From assembly GCA_905479265.1 (NCBI GenBank), contig CAJQLX010000017.1, positions 1-38,338 on the forward strand: a stretch of DNA of 38,338 nt. The letters are read 5' to 3'. The stretch comes from an uncultured Alphaproteobacteria bacterium. Lineage in GTDB: Bacteria; Pseudomonadota; Alphaproteobacteria; UBA7985. The notes beneath the pieces were generated by a model. The model was not told the DNA's origin. It was given only the letters and a program-made list of their open reading frames with translations, and searched no databases. Of the stretch, positions 8,318 through 38,288 are shown piece by piece. The stretch's first letter is position 1; each line of letters starts with the position of its first letter. The position numbers and the translations under genes are program-made.

Positions 8318-8504
8318 GCGAAAATCTCTCCGGGCGTCGACGGCGGTAACGATTACCGAGCGTTCTTATACTCATGAAATCTTGGCTTGCACGGCTTTGG
8401 TTCAAGTGGTCATACCAAAAAATCACATAGGGAACCTGCGTTGCGTCTGGGCAAATTAGCCCTAAGTAACAACTGACCCCTTCAAAGCAACCAGAGGCCG
8501 CTCC

Positions 8505-10763
8505 GTGACCGTTCAAATTGATCCCGAAACCCTTCTGCAGGCGGCACGGGATTCTGTCAGGCTCCACCCTGTCGATGGCATGCCAATCGAACAGGACGCG
8601 CCGCTGGAAATTGTCTCTGAATACGAGCCAGCGGGTGACCAGCCTCAGGCGATCAAAGACCTGCTCGACGGGCTGGGTACGGGCGAGCGAGACAACGTTT
8701 TGTTGGGTGTTACGGGGTCGGGCAAGACCTTTACCATGGCGCACGTCATACAAAAGCTGCAGCGCCCGACGCTGATCATGGCGCACAACAAAACGCTGGC
8801 CGCACAGTTGTATGGGGAGATGCGAGACTTCTTCCCCAACAATGCGGTCGAGTACTTCGTGTCCTACTACGACTACTATCAGCCAGAAGCCTACGTGCCG
8901 CGCTCGGATACCTACGTGGACAAGGAAGCCACGATCAACGAGCAGATCGACCGCATGCGCCACTCCGCGACCCGCGCCCTGTTCGAACGGCGCGATGTTA
9001 TCATCGTGGCGTCGGTGTCGTGCATTTACGGGATGGGCGCGCCTGAGACCTATGCTTCGATGACCATGATGCTCGAAGTCGGGGCTGAGGTCCCGCAAAA
9101 GGAAATCCTGCGTCGGTTCGTGGAGCTGCAGTACAAGCGCAACGACATTGCTTTTCAGCGCGGGATGTTTCGGGTTCGGGGTGATTCAATCGAGGTCTTT
9201 CCGGCCCACCTCGAAGACCGCGCTTGGCGCTTGTCGCTGTTTGGTGACGAGATTGAAGGGATTTGGGAATTCGACCCTTTGACGGGTGAAAAGACCGGTG
9301 AGCTGCAAAAAGTCCGGCTCTACGCCAACTCTCACCACGTCACACCCAAGCCCACGATCATACAGGCGATCCAGAAAATCAAAACCGAACTGGGGCTTCG
9401 GTTGGAAGAGCTTGAAGGCGAAGGCAAGCTGTTGGAAGCGCAGCGCTTGCAGCAGCGGTGCACCTTTGATCTGGAAATGATGGAAGCGACGGGCGTTTGT
9501 GCGGGCATCGAGAACTACAGCCGCTATCTGACGGGACGCGCGCCGGGTGAGCCGCCGCCAACGCTGTTTGAATATCTGCCCGAAGACGCCTTGCTGATGG
9601 TCGACGAAAGCCATGTTTCCGTTCCGCAGATTGGCGCCATGTTCAAAGGCGACCGGGCGCGGAAAGTCACGCTGAGCGACTATGGCTTTCGCCTGCCGTC
9701 CTGTCAGGACAATCGCCCGCTGAAGTTTGAGGAATGGGACGCCATGCGCCCCCAGACCGTCTATGTTTCAGCAACACCGAACGCGTGGGAGCTTGAGCGC
9801 ACCGGCGGTGTCTTTGCCGAGCAAGTGATCCGGCCAACGGGTCTGCTTGATCCGCCGTGCATCATCCGACCAACAGAGAATCAAGTCGATGATCTGATCG
9901 CCGAATGTCAGGAGACGGTAAAAGCGGGTTATCGCGTGCTGGTTACAACGCTGACCAAGCGGATGGCTGAGGATCTCACGGATTACCTGAACGAAGCGGG
10001 TTTGCGGGTTCGATACATTCACGCTGACGTGGAAACGCTCGAACGCATCGAAATCATCCGAGACTTGCGCTTGGGCGTCTACGACGTGCTTGTTGGCATT
10101 AACTTGCTGCGTGAGGGCTTGGATATTCCCGAATGTGCGCTTGTTGGTATTCTGGATGCGGACAAGGAAGGGTACTTGCGATCGACAACATCGCTGATCC
10201 AGACCATTGGACGCGCCGCGCGTAACGTCGATGGGCGCGTGATCCTTTACGCCGACAAAATCACCAAATCCATGCAAGCGGCCTTGGACGAGACAGACCG
10301 CCGTCGCGTCAAGCAAGTGGCCTATAACGAAGAACACGGTATCACGCCGGCAACCATCAAAAAGCAGATCGGTGAAATCATCGACTCGGTTTACGAGAAG
10401 GACCGCGTGACCATTGGAACGGGGGATGAGGATCTCATCACCACCGGCGGCAAAGACCTCAAAGAGGTTATGGCCGACATTGAAACCCGGATGAAAGACG
10501 CGGCCGCTAACCTGGAATTCGAGGAAGCAGCCCGACTGCGGGACGAGCTCAAGCGGCTGGAGGCAGCGGACCTTGGTTTGGGCGGTGCCGTCTCCGTTAA
10601 GGCCGCAGCCGCCGAGAAAGCGGGCAAGACTGAGGGTAAAACCGCAGGACGGAATCGGGCGCGCCGGGCGGCGGAAAAGGATCTGACAAAAACAAAGGGG
10701 GCCGCACTCGACCCCCTGGCTAAAGTCGCTGGTCCTCGAAAGTCACCGCGACGTCGATCTTGA
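8505..10763 (+). CDS. uvrB: Excinuclease ABC subunit B
   Basis: ATP-dependent damage-verification subunit of nucleotide excision repair; loaded by UvrA, then recruits UvrC. The 752 residues show Walker A GVTGSGKT (68-75), the beta-hairpin [16 protein letters not shown] that clamps DNA, the Walker B-like DESHVS near 366, helicase motif [16 protein letters not shown], the arginine-finger motif TIGRAARN, and the C-terminal UVR motif ([17 protein letters not shown]) that contacts UvrC. About 70 residues of basic, Ala-rich tail follow, longer than the enterobacterial protein. The start is GTG at 8505 with AGAGG upstream. It is monocistronic and divergent from the transporter operon; no SOS box was seen in the 187-base gap. 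Confidence 0.97.
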
Positions 10764-18335: not shown

Positions 18336-19113
18336 ACACTCGACCACCCTGCCGCCCTTTCTTACGGCATCGTCGCTTGAGCTGCATGGCCTGAAGCATG
18401 GCTTTTTCACGCGAAACGGGGGTGTGAGCTGGGGCCGAAAAGACCTCAATTGCGGATTGGGTGCTGATGATGACCCGGCACACGTGGCCGAGAACCGCCG
18501 GCGTGTGGCGCTGGCGATCGACGCGGAACGGCTCGTGTCGCTCTACCAAGTCCACTCGGCGGATGTCGTCACCCTGACAGCCAAGCCGGATTGGGACCGA
18601 GGGCCAAAGGCGGATGCGCTGGTGACGAACGTACCGGGTTTAGGCGTGGGGGCTTTGTCTGCCGATTGCGGGGCCGTGCTGGCCGCTGACCCGGCCGCAG
18701 GTGTCATCGCAAGCGCGCATTCAGGGTGGAAGGGAACCTCCCTGAACATCGTGCGAACCACGATCGCAGCGATGGAGCGCTTGGGCGCGCAACGGGATCG
18801 GATCGTGGTCGCGCTGGGTCCAATGATCCGCCAACAAAGCTATGAAGTCGGCCCGGACTTCCCGGACCACTTTACCAATTCGGTTGACGATCATTGGCGT
18901 TTCTTCAGGCCCGCAACCAAGCCCGGGCACTTCATGGGCGATATTGCGGGCATCATCGCCGCGCAGGTTGAGGCCGAAGGGATCGGCTCGTTTCAAGACA
19001 TTGGCGGTGACACCTATGCCGCCGAAGACCGCTTTTTCTCAGCACGGCGCGGGTTTCACCGCCAAGAACCAGACTATGGACGGCTGATTTCGTGTATCGC
19101 GATCCCGGCCTGA
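18328..19113 (+). CDS. pgeF: Peptidoglycan editing factor, laccase-domain (YfiH) family
   Basis: PgeF in E. coli prevents wrong peptidoglycan precursors (serine in place of alanine) from being used; other members show purine nucleoside or polyphenol activity. The 261 residues carry HGFFTRNGGVS near the start and the metal-site residues of the family: His in YQVHSADV, Cys in SADCGAVL, and His in SAHSGWKG. The C-terminal part has VALGPMIRQQSYEVGPDF, where the family usually has CIGPCI, so the paired cysteine there is missing. Its ATG lies 8 bases inside the end of the methyltransferase gene. Confidence 0.92.
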   Translation: MPEHSTTLPPFLTASSLELHGLKHGFFTRNGGVSWGRKDLNCGLGADDDPAHVAENRRRVALAIDAERLVSLYQVHSADVVTLTAKPDWDRGPKADALVTNVPGLGVGALSADCGAVLAADPAAGVIASAHSGWKGTSLNIVRTTIAAMERLGAQRDRIVVALGPMIRQQSYEVGPDFPDHFTNSVDDHWRFFRPATKPGHFMGDIAGIIAAQVEAEGIGSFQDIGGDTYAAEDRFFSARRGFHRQEPDYGRLISCIAIPA

Positions 19114-25765: not shown

Positions 25766-27103
25766 TTAGGCCAGAACGGGCTCGCTGATGGAGGCGGGCA
25801 GCTGCTTTGGTTTCTCGAACAAGCCAAGAACCGGCAGAATGACGATGAAGTAGGCGAAGTAGTACCCGGTAAAGAGTACGCCCCACTGCTGCGTCGAGCC
25901 CCAGACAAATCCATTGCCAGCGTCAATACCCAAAGGCAGACGACCAAACGGTGTTGGGATGAAGAAGGCTTCACCCGACGTTTGCGCGCCGACCAGTGCG
26001 AGGATCAAGCAACACAAGACAAAGCCCCAGAAGAAGAACTTGAAGACCGGGCGGAAACGACCGGACCGGACTGGGGATGTATCAAGCCATGGCATCATGA
26101 ACAGAACGCCAAGCGAGCCTGCCATTGCCAACGCGCCCAACTGCTTACCCGTGATGACCAAACCAAAGAGGTTCAGATCCCACGTGAAGACTTTGAGGAT
26201 CGCGTAGAATGGCAGCAAGTACCACTCTGGCACAATGTGAGACGGCAGGTTGTAGTCTGTCGGCTGGTTGTTGATCGCCTCTGCCAAGCGCTCGGGCGCC
26301 CAAGCGACCACAGCGAGATAGATGGTGAAGAACAGCGCTAGGCCGAAAATGTCCTTGAACGTGTAGTACGGGTGGAAGGACACCGTGTCTTTCTTGGACT
26401 TCAGATCAATGCCGAGCGGGTTGTTTGAACCCACAGTCTGCAGCGTCAGAATGTGCAGAATGACCACGCCAGCCAACACAAACGGCAGCAAGAAGTGCAG
26501 CGCGAAGAAGCGGTTCAGCAACGCGTCATCCACGTCCTCACCACCACGCAGCAGGATCAGGATGTCATCGCCCAAGATCGGAATGGCCGTGAAGACCTGC
26601 GTAATCACCTCAGCAGCAGCAAAGGACATAACGCCCCAAACCAGCGAGTAACCCAAGAACGCGATACCCATCATCAGGATGAGAATGACACAGCCCAAGA
26701 TCCATAGCACTTCACGAGGCGCTTTGTATGAGCCGTAGTACAAGCCACGGAACATGTGGAAAATCACGGCGATAAAGAAGAATGATGCCCCAACAGAGTG
26801 CATATATCGCAGGAACATGCCGCCCTTAACGTCGCGCATGATGTGCTCAACCGAGCGGAATGCCTGGTTGATGCCGTACGTGTCTTCTTGCACCGACGGC
26901 TTGTAGTGCATCGCCAGGAACAGGCCCGTGACGATCATCACCAACAGCATGATGCCGGCGATGGAACCGAAGTTCCACCAGTAGTTCAGGTTTTTAGGGT
27001 AGGCGTGGGCCGTCATCGAGTGATGTACAGCACGCAAAATAGGGAGACGTTCGTCGAAGCCCTTGAGGAAGGGGTTCTTGAACGGTGAACGAGAGCCAGC
27101 CAT
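25766..27103 (-). CDS. petB: Cytochrome b of the bc1 complex
   Basis: Membrane core of the bc1 complex, carrying haems bL and bH and the quinol-oxidising (Qo) and quinone-reducing (Qi) sites. The 445 residues have eight or nine membrane helices. The four haem ligands are present with the canonical 14-residue spacing: His102/His116 and His203/His217. The Qo motif PEWY is at 292-295, followed by LLPFYAILKV. The usual GYVLPWGQMSFWGATVITN block of helix C/cd reads GYSLVWGVMSFAAAEVITQ (151-169), several substitutions from the common form. AAGGAGG at the end of petA supports the ATG at 27103, and 5 bases separate the genes. Confidence 0.96.
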   Translation of the reverse strand: MAGSRSPFKNPFLKGFDERLPILRAVHHSMTAHAYPKNLNYWWNFGSIAGIMLLVMIVTGLFLAMHYKPSVQEDTYGINQAFRSVEHIMRDVKGGMFLRYMHSVGASFFFIAVIFHMFRGLYYGSYKAPREVLWILGCVILILMMGIAFLGYSLVWGVMSFAAAEVITQVFTAIPILGDDILILLRGGEDVDDALLNRFFALHFLLPFVLAGVVILHILTLQTVGSNNPLGIDLKSKKDTVSFHPYYTFKDIFGLALFFTIYLAVVAWAPERLAEAINNQPTDYNLPSHIVPEWYLLPFYAILKVFTWDLNLFGLVITGKQLGALAMAGSLGVLFMMPWLDTSPVRSGRFRPVFKFFFWGFVLCCLILALVGAQTSGEAFFIPTPFGRLPLGIDAGNGFVWGSTQQWGVLFTGYYFAYFIVILPVLGLFEKPKQLPASISEPVLA

Positions 27104-30633: not shown

Positions 30634-31107
30634 TTAGACGTTCAAGGATTCCAGCGTCTGTTCCGCCTCTTCACCTTCATTGCCAGAGAGGGATTTCACC
30701 AAAGCGTAAACCCGACGCCGAACGATGGGATGGCTGATTTTGTAATACGAGCGAACCAGCTCCAACGTCTCGCGCTTGGCGAAGGGATCTTGGCCGTCTG
30801 GCGTATCGTGGTTGTGTTCATTTTCGTCTGGACGCTTGCCGCCGATGACATCGTCGGTCATGCCTTCGTAGAAATACGAAACAGGCACGTCCAAAATGCG
30901 GCCCAATTCATAAAGGCGACTGGCGGAAATGCGGTTGGTGCCGCGCTCATATTTCTGAACTTGCTGGAAGGACAAGTTTAACTCATCTCCCAAAGCTTCT
31001 TGAGACATGCCAAGCAACGTCCGGCGAAGTCGCAGACGCTCGCCAACGTATGCGTCAATGGCATGCGGGGACCGGGCGGAGACGCCCTTTCTAGCTGCTT
31101 CGTTCAT
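30634..31107 (-). CDS. XRE-family helix-turn-helix regulator
   Basis: Regulator of 157 residues of a type widespread in alphaproteobacteria (some members, such as PraR of rhizobia, control surface or quorum-related genes). The N-terminal HTH is clear at about 20-75: GERLRLRRTLLGMSQEALGDELNLSFQQVQKYERGTNRISASRLYELGRIL, with DVPVSYFYEG closing it. A charged linker and a C-terminal helical segment (KRETLELVRSYYKISHPIVRRRVYALVKSL) follow and may mediate dimerisation. The ATG at 31107 has GGAAAA upstream. It is divergent from the imu cassette across 431 bases. Its targets are unknown. Confidence 0.88.
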   Translation of the reverse strand: MNEAARKGVSARSPHAIDAYVGERLRLRRTLLGMSQEALGDELNLSFQQVQKYERGTNRISASRLYELGRILDVPVSYFYEGMTDDVIGGKRPDENEHNHDTPDGQDPFAKRETLELVRSYYKISHPIVRRRVYALVKSLSGNEGEEAEQTLESLNV

Positions 31108-31320
31108 AAAGTACTTTTCCGTTCTGCTGGTGCGCTGAGCCGAATACGAGGCAATGTTCAGGTCTCATTACACGCGTCCACAATAAAATTTGTTTACCTA
31201 TGGGTGCGGTGGTTGCCAAATCGCTCGCGCAAGTCTTAGTCGTGCGACGTGTTAGCCTTTGCACCCAAGAGCCGCAACAGCATAGTTATATAAATTTGGA
31301 ACGCGCTATAAAATTTTTTT

Positions 31321-31349
31321 ACTAAAAGTATCTCAAATGAGACTTTAGT
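31321..31349. repeat. Imperfect palindrome upstream of the XRE gene
   Basis: ACTAAA (31321-31326) mirrors TTTAGT (31344-31349), and within it TCTCA (31331-31335) mirrors TGAGA (31338-31342); the left arm has three extra bases. It lies in the AT-rich divergent region between the XRE and imuA genes and may be an operator. The rest of 31108-31400 shows AT-rich sequence but no gene. Confidence 0.4.
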
Positions 31350-31412
31350 TTCAAATCAACGTCGTAAATGGTGTCTTTCAAACGAAACGCGTTGCTCCCA
31401 TTTCAAAAAATA

Positions 31413-31427
31413 GAACAAAGAAAGAAC
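31413..31427 (+). promoter_or_regulatory. LexA (SOS) box upstream of imuA
   Basis: GAACAAAGAAAGAAC is a perfect GAAC-N7-GAAC direct repeat, the LexA-binding form established for alphaproteobacteria. It lies 7 bases before a possible -35 box and 111 bases before the imuA start, so the cassette is expected to be repressed by LexA and induced by DNA damage. Confidence 0.85.
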
Positions 31428-31434
31428 TTTTATG

Positions 31435-31464
31435 TTGACCAGAATCCGAATCACTCCCTAACAC
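31435..31464 (+). promoter_or_regulatory. Possible imuA promoter
   Basis: TTGACC (31435-31440), 18-bp spacer, TAACAC (31459-31464). It lies between the perfect SOS box and the degenerate second box at 31472-31486. Confidence 0.45.
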
Positions 31465-31471
31465 AGAGAGA

Positions 31472-31486
31472 GAACAAAGAGGGATC
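31472..31486 (+). promoter_or_regulatory. Degenerate second LexA box
   Basis: GAAC, seven bases, then GATC: one mismatch to GAAC-N7-GAAC, and the first eleven positions resemble the perfect box upstream. It lies 45 bases after the -35 position, just after the possible -10, where bound repressor would also block transcription. Confidence 0.4.
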
Positions 31487-31538
31487 AAAAAATCTGCCCT
31501 CTTCAAACCAATCATGACCCGAGAGTTTTGAGCACCCC

Positions 31539-32564
31539 ATGTCAACTCCTCCGTCTGGTGCGCCAGATCACACACTAGAGTCGTTGCGCGCTTTAATCGC
31601 TCAGGTAGAGCGCCGCCCAGCACCCAAATTATCTCGACCCGTTGCCGAGCAACAAGATCACCAGCGGGCTTTACCCTTTGAGGTGGCAGATATTGACGCT
31701 GCGCTGCAGGGGGGCATGGAGTACGATGTGCTGCAGGAGGTTTTGCCGGCCAGAACAGAATGGGATGATGGTCTGACAACGGCTTTCAGTGCCAGTTTGC
31801 TCGCACGCCGGCAGCAAGAGGACCAGCGCCTTAACCCTGGCCAAAACCAGCCCGCGCCCCTGTTTTGGATCGCCCAGCACGACACCGCAGGTGCGGGACT
31901 GTCCGCCCAAGGGTTGGTGAGCCTTGGTTTGGATCCGCAGGCGCTGTGGTTGGTCAACGTTCGAAATGACGCCGAAGCCCTTTGGGCGTTTGAGGAGGTT
32001 TTGGATCATCCTGACGCCTTGGGTGTGGTGTGTGAGGTTTGTCATCTGGAGCTGGCGCAGTCCCATCGCCTGAACCTCAAGGCGGCTCATACTGCGCGGG
32101 AAGATCGGGGACGGTTGCTCTTAGCTTTGCGGCGGCACAAAGGTGCACGCCGACCGCAGGCAAACCCAACCGCTGCGGCAACGCGGTGGCGTCTGGCGTC
32201 CATTCCCCCGCACCTGCTGGCGCCCAATGGACGGGGAAAGGGGCGCGCTGGGACGCCGGAACTGCGCCGCCCCGCCCGAGATGCGGCCGCACTGAGCCTT
32301 GGTCCGCAAGACGCTGGAGCCGCCATTCATCCATCCTTGCAAGAAGCCAGTGCAGACTTTGCTGCTGGCGGCCCTGCGCCATCCGCTCACGCCCTGACGC
32401 CCCCACCGGCGCATCACCCCATGCGACAGGTTCGCTGGCGCGCTGAGATGTTTCGTCAACGTGGGGGTTCCCCCGCATCCTGGCTTCTGGAGTGGTCTTA
32501 TGAGACGCATCGTTTCCGTCGTTTGTCCGAGCTTTGCGCTGTGGGCTCAGCCACACCCGAATGA
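31539..32564 (+). CDS. imuA: ImuA, RecA-like mutasome protein
   Basis: First gene of the damage-inducible imuA-imuB-dnaE2 cassette, which carries out error-prone lesion bypass. ImuA is a RecA/SulA-like protein that works with ImuB and DnaE2. The 341 residues show FEVADIDAALQGGMEYDVLQEVLPA and GLTTAFSASLLARRQQ near the start, PLFWIAQHDTA, LGLDPQALWLVNVRNDAEALWAFEEVL, and the C-terminal RQVRWRAEMFRQRGGSPASWLLEW. No Walker A motif is visible where RecA has one. A Pro/Ala-rich stretch occupies about 205-300. The ATG at 31539 is used; its last 65 bases overlap imuB. Confidence 0.88.
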   Translation: MSTPPSGAPDHTLESLRALIAQVERRPAPKLSRPVAEQQDHQRALPFEVADIDAALQGGMEYDVLQEVLPARTEWDDGLTTAFSASLLARRQQEDQRLNPGQNQPAPLFWIAQHDTAGAGLSAQGLVSLGLDPQALWLVNVRNDAEALWAFEEVLDHPDALGVVCEVCHLELAQSHRLNLKAAHTAREDRGRLLLALRRHKGARRPQANPTAAATRWRLASIPPHLLAPNGRGKGRAGTPELRRPARDAAALSLGPQDAGAAIHPSLQEASADFAAGGPAPSAHALTPPPAHHPMRQVRWRAEMFRQRGGSPASWLLEWSYETHRFRRLSELCAVGSATPE

Positions 32565-34239
32565 CGCCGCGCAAGCCCAGCCTTGGGCATTGACGGTTGA
32601 GCGGCGCAATCTGGTCATTGTCCACGACGCCAATCCGGTTGCGCGTGCCGCTGGCGCCCAGCCGGGGCAACCGCTGACCGACGCACGGGCTCTCGTGCCC
32701 GGGCTGCGGTCAGTGAGCGTTGATCCAGCACGCATCGAGCGCGCCTGGCAAGCCACCGCACATTGGCTGACGCGCTACACCCCTTTGGTCGCGCTGGATC
32801 CGGCCAGCCCGCCCACGGACGTTGGCGGGGCTGCTGGCTTTGTGCTCGATGTCTCTGGGTGCTCGCACCTGTTTGGGGGGGAGCAAGGTTTGTTGCGCGA
32901 TTTGGTCGAGCGGATGCATGCTTGGGGCTTGCCGGTGCGAGCGGCTATGGCTGATACGCCGCTGGCGGCCTGGGGGCTGGCCCGCTGTGGGGATGCGCCT
33001 GTGCAGTGCGTGCCTGCTGGTGAAACCTTGCCTGCGCTGCGGCCTCTGCCAGTGACAGCGCTGAATTTACCGGATGCAACCGTTGAAGCGTTGGACCGTC
33101 TGGGTCTGCGTCGCATTGGTGACATTGTCGCGTTGGATCGTCAGGCCTTGGGGCAGCGGTTTTCTGAGAAACTGACACGCAAGCAAGCAGAGCAAGCCCG
33201 AACCACATCGGAACGCCTGCTCGAAGCCCTCGATCGCGCCTTGGGAAAGCGACCAGATGCGATAACGCCATTATTGCCTGCGGCGTCCTATGCGGCGCGC
33301 AAGCTGTTTCACGAACCCATCGGAACAGCCGCCAGCATCGAGCAAACATTGGTGGACCTGATGGCGGCTGTTCTCCCCATGGTTCGGCGTGCCGGTCAGG
33401 GTGTGCGCCAAGCGACGGTGTCGCTGTACCGCGTCGACGGCGCGCGCCAAGACATCCGGCTGCGCTTTCATCGTCCGACGTTGGAGCCGGGGTTGCTGTT
33501 GCGGCTGTTCAGTGAGCAGACCGAGACGTTGGACGTGGGTTTTGGGCTGGATGCGGTGGGACTGTCGGTCCAGCGCGCAGAAACCATGCAAGAAAGCCAA
33601 GACAGTTTGCTCTCGCACAGCGTTCCAGGCCGCCATCATCCTGTGCTGGATCGCCTGACCAACCGCTTGGGCGCCGAAGCGGTTGCACAGCCGACGCTGC
33701 GTCCGCGCCACGATCCGCGTGAAGCGGAGCTGCGGCAATCGGTTGAGAACGCCTTGGCGACCCCACTCACTGCGGTGGTGGGCGTGAGTCAGCAACGCAG
33801 TGCAGCGGCTTTGGATCAGGATTTGGGTGACCCCGAAATCGCGGCGCAAGCTGGCTTACGCCGTCAGGCCCAACCCCGCCCGGTTATTCTGCTCGCTGAA
33901 CCTCAGCCCGTGCAAATCGACGACGCCCAACCATTGACCAGCGGCTTGCGACCGCCCCATCAGTTCCACTGGCGACGCCAGCACCATCGATTGGTGCGGT
34001 GGAGCGGGCCAGAGCGCTTGACCCCCGCGTGGTGGGACTGTCCCAACGGGCACTTAGGCACCTACGCGTCTTCCCCCCGAAGCCTGCCGGTGACGAAAGA
34101 TTACTTCCATGTCGAGGATGAGGAGGGGCGCCAGTTCTGGATGGCCCGCACATGCAGCAGTCCCACAGCCCCTTTTGGTGACAGGACGGGACAAGCAGCC
34201 GGTCGGCCACATTGGACGGTTGAAGGGCTGTTTGCATGA
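32500..34239 (+). CDS. imuB: ImuB, Y-family polymerase-like mutasome protein
   Basis: Catalytically inactive Y-family DNA polymerase homologue that bridges DnaE2 and the beta clamp. The 579 residues open with MRRIVSVVCPSFALWAQ, where active Y-family enzymes carry the metal-binding D-x-D; no acidic residue is present, as expected for ImuB. Then come VLDVSGCSHLFGG, the helix-hairpin-helix-like LNLPDATVEALDRLGLRRIGDIVAL, the little-finger-like region, and a C-terminal tail with RLVRWSGPERLTPAWWD and KDYFHVEDEEGRQFWMAR, typical of ImuB. GGAG 7 bases before the ATG at 32500 supports this start, which overlaps imuA by 65 bases. Its stop overlaps the dnaE2 start (ATGA). Confidence 0.92.
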   Translation: MRRIVSVVCPSFALWAQPHPNDAAQAQPWALTVERRNLVIVHDANPVARAAGAQPGQPLTDARALVPGLRSVSVDPARIERAWQATAHWLTRYTPLVALDPASPPTDVGGAAGFVLDVSGCSHLFGGEQGLLRDLVERMHAWGLPVRAAMADTPLAAWGLARCGDAPVQCVPAGETLPALRPLPVTALNLPDATVEALDRLGLRRIGDIVALDRQALGQRFSEKLTRKQAEQARTTSERLLEALDRALGKRPDAITPLLPAASYAARKLFHEPIGTAASIEQTLVDLMAAVLPMVRRAGQGVRQATVSLYRVDGARQDIRLRFHRPTLEPGLLLRLFSEQTETLDVGFGLDAVGLSVQRAETMQESQDSLLSHSVPGRHHPVLDRLTNRLGAEAVAQPTLRPRHDPREAELRQSVENALATPLTAVVGVSQQRSAAALDQDLGDPEIAAQAGLRRQAQPRPVILLAEPQPVQIDDAQPLTSGLRPPHQFHWRRQHHRLVRWSGPERLTPAWWDCPNGHLGTYASSPRSLPVTKDYFHVEDEEGRQFWMARTCSSPTAPFGDRTGQAAGRPHWTVEGLFA

Positions 34240-37200
34240 CCCGCGACCCGGCTTCAGATTCCAGTGATCGCGTTTTGCTGCCCAGCCGCCGATTGGCCTA
34301 TGTCGAGCTGCAGGTGAGCTCGAATTTCTCCTTCCTGCGCGGCGCGAGCCACCCCGACGAGTTGGCGTTGGCGGCGGGAGCGCTCGGGGTCAAAGGCTTT
34401 GCTGTGACCGATCGCAACAGCATGGCGGGCGTGGTGCGGGCTCATATGGCGTGCAAGGACGCGGGCTTGCCGTTCATCGTTGGATGCCGGCTCGACCTTA
34501 TCCGCGACGCGCGCCCCGAAGCTCAAGGACAGCGCCGCCTGACACGGGTGGCCCGAACCCAAGCCCGCAAGCCGTCAGGAACAGAGCGCACCGCAACACA
34601 AGCGCTGGTTGAGCCACAGGATGCACGACCCGGTGGATCGTTTTTGGCCTACCCCACCGACCGGGCAGCCTATGGCCGCTTGTGCCGATTGTTGACGCTG
34701 GGCCGCCGTCGCGCGCCCAAGGGCGATTGTTTCATTGATCTCGAAGACCTGCGCGCCCACGCCGAAGGCATGATCCTGATCGCCCTGCCACCGCCAACGA
34801 TCGAGGCGGATTTCATGATGCGGCTGATTGATCTGGGGCGGCAATGGCAGGGGCGGCTGTATTTGGGCGCGCACCACCATCTCAGCGGGGACGACGAGGT
34901 ACGCTTGAGCCAACTTGCGGCGGTTGCGGATCGCACAGGTGTGCCGATGGTCGCGCTCAATGACGTGCATTTTCACAGCCGCAGTCGAAAGCCGCTGCAA
35001 GACGTGCTGACCTGCATCCGGCACGGCTGCACGGTTGATACCGCAGGAACGCGATTGTTCCCCAATGCGGAGCGGTGCTTGAAGACCGCCGAAGAAATGG
35101 CGCTGCTGTTCTCTGATCATCCTGACGCCCTCGCGCGCACGGTCGAAATCGCCCGGCGGTGCACCTTTTCGCTGGACGAGCTGCGCTATGAATACCCGGA
35201 CGAGCTGACACAGAACGGCCGAAACACCGCCGAAGAACTGCGCCATCTGGCCTATGAGGGCGCGCATCAGCGCTATGGCGCGGTGGTTCCCGAGCGGGTG
35301 GTCGCAAGCATCGAGCATGAGTTGGCCCTCATTGGCGAACTCAAATACGAGCCCTATTTTCTGACCGTCTATGACATCGTTCGATTCGCCCGGTCGCAGG
35401 GGATTTTATGCCAAGGGCGCGGATCGGCGGCGAACTCGACCGTCTGCTTTTGCTTGGGCATCACAGCTGTGGACCCCGCGCGTGTCGATTTGCTGTTCGA
35501 GCGCTTCATTTCCGCAGCCCGTGATGAGCCGCCGGACATCGATGTTGATTTCGAGCACGAGCGGCGCGAAGAGGTCATTCAGTACATTTACACCAAATAT
35601 GGCCGAGACCGCGCCGGATTGGCGGCGACCGTGATCAGCTACCGCACGCGCGGTGCTGTGCGGGATGTGGGGAAGGCGCTGGGTCTGTCTGAGGACGCCA
35701 TTGCCGCCATCAGCTCGAATATCTCCGGCTGGAATGAAAGCCGCAGCGCCGCCGCGCCAGCGGATGAGGCGGAGGCGCAGACCACGCTGCCCGCGCGCAC
35801 GGGCCGCGTTCTGGCCCACGAGCGCTTGAGCGAGATGGGGCTGGACATCACCTCTCCACGACTGGCGATGGCTTTGGATCTGGTCCAGCAAATCCGCGGA
35901 TTCCCCCGCCATTTGTCTCAGCATGTCGGCGGCTTTGTCCTCACCCGTGGGCCCCTATCCGAATACGTTCCGATCGCCAACGCCGCCATGCAGGACCGCA
36001 CGGTGATCGAATGGGACAAAGACGATCTAGAGGCGCTTGGGCTGATGAAAGTCGATGTGCTCTCGCTGGGCATGCTGTCGTGCATGCGGCGGTGCTTCGA
36101 ACTGCTGGAGCATCACTACGGCGCGGTTCATTCGCTGGCGAGCATCCCTTCGGAAGACCCTGCGGTCTATGACATGCTTTCGCGCGGGGACTCCCTTGGC
36201 GTGTTTCAGGTGGAAAGCCGCGCCCAGATGAACATGCTGCCGCGCCTCAAGCCGGCGACCTTTTATGATTTGGTGGTGCAAGTCGCCATTGTCCGGCCCG
36301 GACCGATCCAAGGCGACATGGTCCACCCCTACTTGCGCCGCCGCAATGGGGAGGAGCCGGTGGATTACCCCTCAGAGGAGCTGGAAAAGGTTCTCGGTAA
36401 AACCCTCGGCGTGCCGTTGTTTCAAGAGCAAGCCATGAAAATCGCCATTGTCGCGGCTGGCTTCACCCCGACGGAGGCGGACCAACTGCGTCGGGCGATG
36501 GCGACATTCAAGAAAGACGGAATGCTGCACCAATTCGGCGATAAGCTGCGATTGGGTATGGCGGCGCGCGGCTATGATCCAGAGTTCGCCGACCGGTGTT
36601 TCAAGCAGATCGAGGGCTTTGGCAGCTATGGGTTTCCGGAGAGTCACGCCGCGTCGTTTGCTTTGCTGGTTTACACCAGTTCGTGGATGAAAAAGCATTA
36701 CCCCGAGGTCTTCGCCTGCGCCTTGCTCAACTCCCAACCCATGGGGTTTTATGCGCCAGCACAGATCATCCGTGACGCCCGCGAACATGGGGTCGAGGTG
36801 CTGCCCCCTGATGTGAATGCATCGGACTGGGACAACACGCTGGCCTTTCCAACCGGTCGACCGGTTGGCTTGCCCTCGTCGCGCTGGCCCGACACCCACC
36901 CGCGCGCCTATGCCATCCGGCTTGGCTTGCGACAGGTGAAGGGGTTGAAAGAAGAGGATGCAGAGAAAATCGTCCTTGCGCGGAATAATGGCTACCCGGA
37001 TATGCTCAGTTTGTGGCGGCGGTCCGGCGCATCGGTTGCTGCGTTGGAGACCTTGGCGCGTGGGGATGGTTACAGCTCGCTTGGCTTGGGCCGTCGAGAG
37101 GCGTTTTGGGCGATCAAGGCGTTGCCCGCTGACCCCCTTCCGCTGTTTGCCGCAGCTGCGGCCGAAGAGTGGTCCGATGTGGCCCAAGGCGCAGAAAATC

Positions 37201-38171
37201 TGCCAGCCATGACCGTGGGTGAGGAGGTTGCGGACGACTACCGCGCCCTGCGCCTTTCGCTCAAGGCGCACCCCATGGCCTTGCTCCGGGACCAACTCGC
37301 CGCAGAAGGACGGCTCCCGTCCAAGGCGCTTTGGACGCTCAAGGATGGCGCTTTGGTCAAGCTCGCTGGCGTGGTTTTGGTTCGCCAGCGACCGGGGTCG
37401 GCCAAGGGCGTCATCTTCATCACGCTGGAAGACGAAACCGGCGTCGCCAATCTCGTGATCTGGTCCGATCGTTTTGAGGCTTACCGCCGCGAAGTCCTGT
37501 CCGCGTCACTGCTGGAAGTATGGGGACGCGTGCAAAAGAGCGGTGAGGGCGATCATCAGGTGATCCATATCACCGCGCAACATTTGGTTGATCGCTCCGC
37601 CTTGTTGGCTGAAATGCAGGTGGGCGAGGGCGAGCCGGACATGCTCGACAGCCCGGTAACGCCGCCGCTGGCCCATGCGGATGAAATCGTCCGCGGCATG
37701 CCGGACGATCCTCGACAAGCAGACATCGCAGGCCGTCATGACGACGCTCAACCCCTGCGCGCTATGGGGCAGCGGGGACATTGGGGGACCGGGCAAGGGG
37801 CGTCGCGCTCCGTAGAACGGCAGCTCAATGCGCCAGGCGGCAGGGGCCCCAAACCCAAAACGTACCAAGAGCGCGAGGCGGCCATCACGGCTGCGCGACA
37901 GGCCAAGAAACTGCGCCGGCGCCGTGGTGAGCCAGCCACACCCGGCCCGGCATCAGACCCGGTTCACGGCGCCCGGGCTTCAAGTTTGCCCAACCCGCTC
38001 ACAAACGTCGGCCAGCCCAAAACCAGCCGCCACCCTCGTGATATCGCCTTGGACGTCCCGACCTCGCCCAACCGAGTCAAAGTCACCGTCGCTGCGCAAA
38101 CGCCCCATACAGGCCACGGCGCACCCAATCCCTTTGACGCAAAGCCGCCGCGCTCTCGACGAGGGCGATAA
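34236..38171 (+). CDS. dnaE2: Error-prone DNA polymerase DnaE2 (ImuC)
   Basis: Alternative alpha subunit of the C-family polymerases, the catalytic enzyme of the ImuABC mutasome. The 1311 residues contain the PHP domain (YVELQVSSNFSFLRGASHPDEL and AVTDRNSMAGVVR), the palm region with RGSAANSTVCFCLGIT and the catalytic PPDIDVDFEHERREEVIQYI (near 431), the KVDVLSLGMLSCMRR and HVGGFVLTRGPLSEYVPI blocks, finger motifs (LFQEQAMKIAIVAAGFTPTEADQLRRAMATFKK), and an OB domain (LAGVVLVRQRPGSAKGVIFITLEDETG). After about residue 1120 comes a tail of about 190 residues rich in Pro, Arg, Gly and His. Members are usually 1000-1150 residues. It is coupled to imuB by ATGA. Confidence 0.96.
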   Translation: MTRDPASDSSDRVLLPSRRLAYVELQVSSNFSFLRGASHPDELALAAGALGVKGFAVTDRNSMAGVVRAHMACKDAGLPFIVGCRLDLIRDARPEAQGQRRLTRVARTQARKPSGTERTATQALVEPQDARPGGSFLAYPTDRAAYGRLCRLLTLGRRRAPKGDCFIDLEDLRAHAEGMILIALPPPTIEADFMMRLIDLGRQWQGRLYLGAHHHLSGDDEVRLSQLAAVADRTGVPMVALNDVHFHSRSRKPLQDVLTCIRHGCTVDTAGTRLFPNAERCLKTAEEMALLFSDHPDALARTVEIARRCTFSLDELRYEYPDELTQNGRNTAEELRHLAYEGAHQRYGAVVPERVVASIEHELALIGELKYEPYFLTVYDIVRFARSQGILCQGRGSAANSTVCFCLGITAVDPARVDLLFERFISAARDEPPDIDVDFEHERREEVIQYIYTKYGRDRAGLAATVISYRTRGAVRDVGKALGLSEDAIAAISSNISGWNESRSAAAPADEAEAQTTLPARTGRVLAHERLSEMGLDITSPRLAMALDLVQQIRGFPRHLSQHVGGFVLTRGPLSEYVPIANAAMQDRTVIEWDKDDLEALGLMKVDVLSLGMLSCMRRCFELLEHHYGAVHSLASIPSEDPAVYDMLSRGDSLGVFQVESRAQMNMLPRLKPATFYDLVVQVAIVRPGPIQGDMVHPYLRRRNGEEPVDYPSEELEKVLGKTLGVPLFQEQAMKIAIVAAGFTPTEADQLRRAMATFKKDGMLHQFGDKLRLGMAARGYDPEFADRCFKQIEGFGSYGFPESHAASFALLVYTSSWMKKHYPEVFACALLNSQPMGFYAPAQIIRDAREHGVEVLPPDVNASDWDNTLAFPTGRPVGLPSSRWPDTHPRAYAIRLGLRQVKGLKEEDAEKIVLARNNGYPDMLSLWRRSGASVAALETLARGDGYSSLGLGRREAFWAIKALPADPLPLFAAAAAEEWSDVAQGAENLPAMTVGEEVADDYRALRLSLKAHPMALLRDQLAAEGRLPSKALWTLKDGALVKLAGVVLVRQRPGSAKGVIFITLEDETGVANLVIWSDRFEAYRREVLSASLLEVWGRVQKSGEGDHQVIHITAQHLVDRSALLAEMQVGEGEPDMLDSPVTPPLAHADEIVRGMPDDPRQADIAGRHDDAQPLRAMGQRGHWGTGQGASRSVERQLNAPGGRGPKPKTYQEREAAITAARQAKKLRRRRGEPATPGPASDPVHGARASSLPNPLTNVGQPKTSRHPRDIALDVPTSPNRVKVTVAAQTPHTGHGAPNPFDAKPPRSRRGR

Positions 38172-38213: not shown

Positions 38214-38288
38214 GCGGGTGTAGCTCAGTGGTAGAGCAGTAGCTTCCCAAGCTACGTGTCGAGGGTTCGATTCCCTTCACCCGCTCCA
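38214..38288 (+). tRNA. tRNA-Gly (CCC)
   Basis: The complete cloverleaf can be drawn: acceptor stem GCGGGTG with CACCCGC (38278-38284), D-arm GCTC-AGTGGTA-GAGC, anticodon stem GTAGC/GCTAC with loop TTCCCAA giving anticodon CCC, variable loop GTGTC, T-arm with TTCGATT, discriminator T, and encoded CCA (38286-38288). It reads GGG glycine codons. It follows dnaE2 by 42 bases. A weak AAACCC/GGGTTT pair (38301-38306 and 38326-38331) after it could help end transcription. Confidence 0.97.

Follow-up and report, generated by a model that had tools for sequence, protein, structure and literature searches.

Is a mutagenesis cassette that stands behind two LexA-type boxes controlled by one of them or by both, and is a degenerate second box a working operator or only a resemblance? 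This question is raised by the promoter of an imuA-imuB-dnaE2 cassette in an uncultured alphaproteobacterium, where a perfect SOS box and an imperfect copy of it stand on either side of a putative promoter. The window, i.e., the whole stretch of DNA that was analysed (38,338 nucleotides), is a single contig of a genome of 2.89 Mb that is 96% complete. It was compared with its own family, which in our sample consists of six genomes of one genus, with two genomes of a sister family (G006 and G007), with two genomes of a third family (L163 and L165), and with imuA loci from other alphaproteobacteria.

The cassette and its neighbours

Three genes, imuA, imuB and dnaE2, lie adjacent in that order and span 31539 to 38171. 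The assignment of dnaE2 (34236-38171, + strand), encoding an error-prone DNA polymerase, is clear (NF004225, 1390 bits against a cut-off of 939), and imuB (32461-34239, +), whose start codon is uncertain, encodes a Y-family polymerase-like protein with the IMS domain (PF00817). The open reading frame of 341 aa at 31539-32564 (+) is putatively named imuA from the gene order, its neighbours and a weak match to NF033429 in a profile search (28.6 bits, cut-off 150); Pfam gave no match. Among the six genomes of the genus, imuA is present in four, our own included, and was not found in G003 (82% complete) or G005 (79% complete). Close relatives of imuA occur in the alphaproteobacterial MAGs MED834, MED755 and SP156. 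A tRNA-Gly gene (anticodon CCC) directly follows dnaE2 at 38214-38288.

The intergenic region before imuA is common to a divergent gene (30634-31107, -) for a helix-turn-helix regulator of the XRE type (PF01381). A divergently encoded co-regulator has a precedent in DdiA of Myxococcus (PMC12288472), and the XRE gene was considered for a similar role at imuA; nothing beyond its neighbourhood supports this, and the idea was dropped. Between the two genes a block at 31221-31290 is kept across the four aligned genomes of the genus, with CCTTTGCACCCAAG (31256-31269) inside it invariant in all four; the XRE gene may have its promoter and self-operator in this block.

The perfect box before imuA

The SOS motif taken alone proves nothing here, because the window holds 27 sites with at most one mismatch and 31.8 are expected by shuffling. 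Four of its boxes are perfect, and only one stands outside a gene; those at 18744 and 33200 both fall within genes, and the one at 25817 was rejected as a promoter box because it sits within the gene that precedes the next one. The whole genome gives the same picture, as counting boxes yields no enrichment when the 80 perfect boxes fall below the 149 of the reversed-pattern control. With a home-made gene caller, 16 of the 77 classified boxes (the 80 minus three within the window) were placed outside called genes, two of these at the lexA promoter and two in another gap.

The case for the intergenic box is made by its rank and its conservation. Box 1, GAACAAAGAAAGAAC (31413-31427, +), matches GAACN7GAAC (GTTCN7GTTC) fully and starts 126 nt before the ATG of imuA. 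It ranks first among 76,648 window positions by a 15-mer matrix built from 20 distinct boxes, 10 of them lexA, recA and ssb boxes of the genus and the other 10 taken from imuA loci elsewhere, and a site as good arises with P 0.001 in shuffles of the 234-base promoter region. None of the four imuA-bearing genomes of the genus, our own included, has a mismatch in it. A perfect box in the same orientation also precedes imuA in each of 12 alphaproteobacterial loci outside the genus (L036-L042, L045-L048 and L147, the last from the same order), 11 of which came from the search for imuA relatives and one from G007, and no box was seen at the two Bacteroidetes imuA loci examined. Box 1 is thus a probable high-affinity LexA operator.

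A regulator for such boxes is encoded in the genome. We found lexA at G000:C14:99591-100427, with DNA-binding and self-cleaving domains, so that the absence of lexA, which the initial annotation had named as fatal to its reading, is excluded. The Ala-Gly site and the Ser and Lys residues, which we take to be the cleavage site and the catalytic pair, align to solved LexA proteins, and this suggests normal self-cleavage. Perfect boxes precede lexA in all five genomes in which it was found (it was not found in G001, 63% complete), recA in five of five (that of G002 is cut by the contig end) and ssb in six of six. With lexA present and the box conserved, the LexA-type control of imuA that had been proposed earlier is supported as a prediction from comparative data. 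In the lexA promoter of our genome (L026:1501-1549, G000:C14:99468-99516), GAAC-N7-GAAC-N7-GATC forms a run of three in-register half-sites, and the opposite strand has another perfect box.

Position of the strong box relative to the promoter

The hexamer TTGACC at 31435-31440 (+) is taken as the putative -35 because it is invariant: each of the four imuA-bearing genomes of the genus has it 22 nt downstream of the point where box 1 begins. A perfect GAAC-N7-GAAC repeat before a plausible -35, as noted at the outset, is confirmed. The putative -10 is weak and was placed within 31458-31464 (+) from spacing only, as CTAACA (31458-31463, spacing 17) or TAACAC (31459-31464, spacing 18). The imuA promoter was not among the results of a consensus scan over 31100-31620, whose sole match lies on the - strand and is at chance level.

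The 12 loci outside the genus resemble ours in having one perfect box in the same orientation, but there TTGAC lies 12-34 nt upstream of that box, whereas in the genus the perfect box comes first, TTGACC follows and box 2 stands after it (4/4). Since the order is reversed in this way, the strong box appears to hold a different position at the promoter, and the weak box would stand near the usual place. Loci L034 and L035 have an additional TTGAC at -56. A separate second box of the form GAACAAA-N4-GATC or GAACAAA-N4-GTAC was not found in the scanned stretch of the 12 outside loci; in L037 and L042 the imuA box is abutted by a third half-site, and one-mismatch sites of other kinds occur before imuA in L036, L038 and L048.

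The degenerate box before imuA

Box 2, GAACAAAGAGGGATC followed by AAA (31472-31489, +), is a probable low-affinity LexA operator near the predicted transcription start. Its core at 31472-31486 differs from GAACN7GAAC by one mismatch in the second half, so that the one-mismatch copy GAAC-N7-GATC reported after the -10 is borne out and, moreover, is kept in all four genomes. The counterparts are GAACAAAACATGATC in MED834, GAACAAAAGAAGTAC in MED755 and GAACAAAAAAAGTAC in SP156; across the four, GAACAAA-N4 is followed by GATC in two and by GTAC in the other two. In our genome, MED834, MED755 and SP156, the distance from box 1 to box 2 is 59, 58, 57 and 57 nt, and that from TTGACC to box 2 is 37, 36, 35 and 35.

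By score, box 2 is less secure than box 1. It ranks 6th of the 76,648 window positions with the 15-mer matrix and had ranked 182nd with an earlier 21-mer matrix, which was built from 12 unique lexA, recA and ssb sites and was replaced after this result, being judged to over-penalise spacer bases. When the 234 bases of the promoter region are shuffled, a match equal to our box 2 has P 0.18 anywhere on either strand and P 0.003 if it must keep the strand of box 2 and lie no more than 3 nt from its position; the boxes 2 of the relatives score better (P 0.04 to 0.0005 anywhere). Because P 0.18 is no more than chance would give in a promoter this long, the case for box 2 rests on conservation. Invariant columns number 12 of 18 in box 2 plus AAA and 1 of 37 in the flanks among the four genomes, in an ungapped count anchored on box 2, which favours that box, and among species whose common ancestry means that they cannot count as separate trials.

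The same element before recA

A further argument comes from recA, where GAACAAA-N4-GNNC-AAA stands at -68 in all six genomes of the genus, that of G002 missing its first base at a contig end. A pattern composed after both promoters had been seen, GAACAAANNNNGNNCAAA (GAACAAAN4GNNCAAA), has 15 matches in the six genomes against none for its reversed control. Nine of these are recA (5) or imuA (4) promoters, and in our own genome the only two matches are exactly those before recA and imuA. The remaining six comprise three copies of one site in an FtsQ-like coding region, two other coding sites and one site between called genes, the last in a 3 kb stretch where no perfect box was seen. The FtsQ-like site, GAACAAATCAAGATCAAA, is conserved in G001, G004 and G005 and was considered as a new regulon member, but it was rejected for its position inside the coding region. 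The element was not found at the ssb promoters. Between the second box and the start codon of recA, a near-palindrome, GCATAATTATTGC (L074:1244-1256), is kept in all six genomes together with the leader.

The second half-site is degenerate before recA as well, reading GTCC and GTTC in our own genome and in G001, with matrix scores of 5.7 and 7.4 bits. Taking imuA (4) and recA (6, one cut by the contig end) together, the element is imperfect at all ten sites, and only the G and the C of its second half are common to all of them. That GAAC never occurs there and yet G and C are kept suggests that selection holds the half-site weak, although ten related sites are few.

Degenerate boxes also stand at recA promoters outside the genus. 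In G006 one 15-mer occurs twice in inverted orientation, as GTACCTATTTTGTTC and GAACAAAATAGGTAC, around TTGACA (L164:1346-1393), and no perfect box was seen within the 260 nt examined; G007 follows the same plan with one copy worse (two mismatches), again without a perfect box in 260 nt. Because boxes ending in GTAC stand at these promoters where a perfect box is missing, such degenerate boxes are likely true operators. In L163 and L165, recA has other, adjoining half-sites and lacks the inverted-pair plan of G006.

One operator or two

The reading that we consider probable is that LexA represses imuA-imuB-dnaE2 through two operators, a strong one upstream and one downstream that is kept weak. 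LexA would have a high affinity for box 1, the perfect site upstream of the -35, and a low one for box 2, the degenerate site near the transcription start, and the two boxes together would bar RNA polymerase from TTGACC. Upon DNA damage, RecA would trigger the self-cleavage of LexA, and the weak downstream site would be vacated first. Binding of LexA to either box, the transcription start, the cooperation of the boxes and the order of release are what we infer from the arrangement of sites, as is any tight repression or graded induction that two boxes might provide.

A simpler account would have box 1 as the only LexA operator, with box 2 kept for another factor or as the first transcribed bases of recA and imuA. 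The constant imperfection of the element at all ten sites, with nothing but G and C kept in its second half, would be natural under such an account, as would its absence from ssb. Its first half, however, is an exact extended SOS half-site, GAACAAA, and boxes ending in GTAC stand not only at the recA promoters of G006 and G007, where the 260 nt hold no perfect box, but also beside a perfect box at the lexA promoters of G004 and G005 (GAACN7GTAC). These observations make a single operator unlikely in our judgement, if still a serious competitor to control by a strong and a weak operator.

Two other accounts concern the unusual position of box 1 and the origin of box 2. LexA has a double role at recA of Rhodobacter sphaeroides, and it can be imagined that box 1, upstream of the -35, likewise helps RNA polymerase at rest while box 2 represses. 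The weak -10 would fit with this, and so would the 22 nt by which box 1 begins ahead of TTGACC in 4/4, unlike in the 12 other loci; against it, help from LexA at rest would not be expected for a mutagenic polymerase, and imuA of Caulobacter is upregulated on SOS induction (PMC9578287), and we regard it as very improbable. Alternatively, box 2 might be a functionless, decaying remnant of an ancestral operator that box 1 replaced, and its place 35-37 nt after the start of TTGAC is indeed near that of the single box elsewhere (30-34 nt in 5 of the 12). A site in decay should hardly have retained 12 invariant columns of 18 when its flanks have 1 of 37, nor should the same G..C pattern recur before recA, so that we regard a remnant as the least credible of these explanations, and repression through two unequal operators as the one to carry forward.

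Relation to known SOS systems

Two LexA sites per promoter are known from lexA and the colicin genes of Escherichia coli, where the boxes are palindromic and of another sequence. The promoters studied here share the two sites with them and differ in that the boxes are direct repeats, one of which is kept degenerate. Closer is Caulobacter crescentus, which has the same imuA-imuB-dnaE2 cassette, the same direct-repeat box (GTTCN7GTTC), LexA and RecA, and whose imuABC is SOS-induced (PMC9578287, PMC12700426). About 97% of Caulobacter SOS promoters have a single box (PMC12700426), whereas lexA, recA and imuA each have a second site here and the perfect imuA box lies upstream of the putative -35. 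The cassette and the SOS box are therefore already known, and the two-site layout looks like a variant of a known system. In the open-licence literature searched, we did not find a description of a strong and weak pair at imuA and recA or of a displaced strong box, which is no claim that these are unpublished.

It can be speculated more broadly that the core SOS genes of this group (lexA, recA and imuA) run from two-site promoters, each pairing a strong box with a close neighbour held weak by selection, which at recA and imuA has the form GAACAAA-N4-GNNC. The pair would bracket the imuA promoter, the weak site would determine how far LexA must fall before mutagenesis begins, and LexA at the moved strong box could do more than block the polymerase. 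As a whole we put this forward tentatively, as a generalisation that is conceivable and open to considerable doubt. Its interest lies in the contrast with Caulobacter, in which, according to a 2025 study, imuABC is induced early and uvrA late and the properties of the LexA box fail to predict the timing of induction (PMC12700426). Promoters with one strong and one weak site, as at recA and imuA here, thus form a natural contrast to an organism with nearly all single-box promoters, where box strength leaves timing unexplained (PMC12700426), and the group makes it testable whether the onset of mutagenesis is set by the number and strength of operators.

Excision repair genes and other boxes

The initial annotation saw no matching box before uvrB or uvrC, and the comparison agrees, as no conserved box was found before either gene. 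The best upstream scores with the 15-mer matrix, 7.4 bits for uvrB and 6.8 bits for uvrC, are at background level. Within 400 nt upstream, a site with at most one mismatch was found in none of four congeners for uvrB and in none of four genomes, our own included, for uvrC. The uvrB gene of our genome does have a one-mismatch site across its start codon (8500-8514, -), which was rejected as a conserved box on account of its absence from all four congeners.

Outside the window, uvrA (L100 = G000:C36, with L099 and L101-L104) has a perfect box in none of the six genomes, and a one-mismatch site lies at -72 to -75 from the profile match in four of them, our own not being among these. Erill and colleagues are reported to have proposed uvrA for a common LexA gene set (PMC3091678), so that its lack of a perfect box is a departure. 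Excision repair may be constitutive in this organism, as the initial annotation proposed. The 16 perfect boxes of our genome that were placed outside called genes include, besides those of lexA, recA and ssb, boxes upstream of a parE-type gene, of a gene for a CcrM-type methylase and of one for a Peptidase_S24 protein (L080, L098 and L070, each at 1501-1515).
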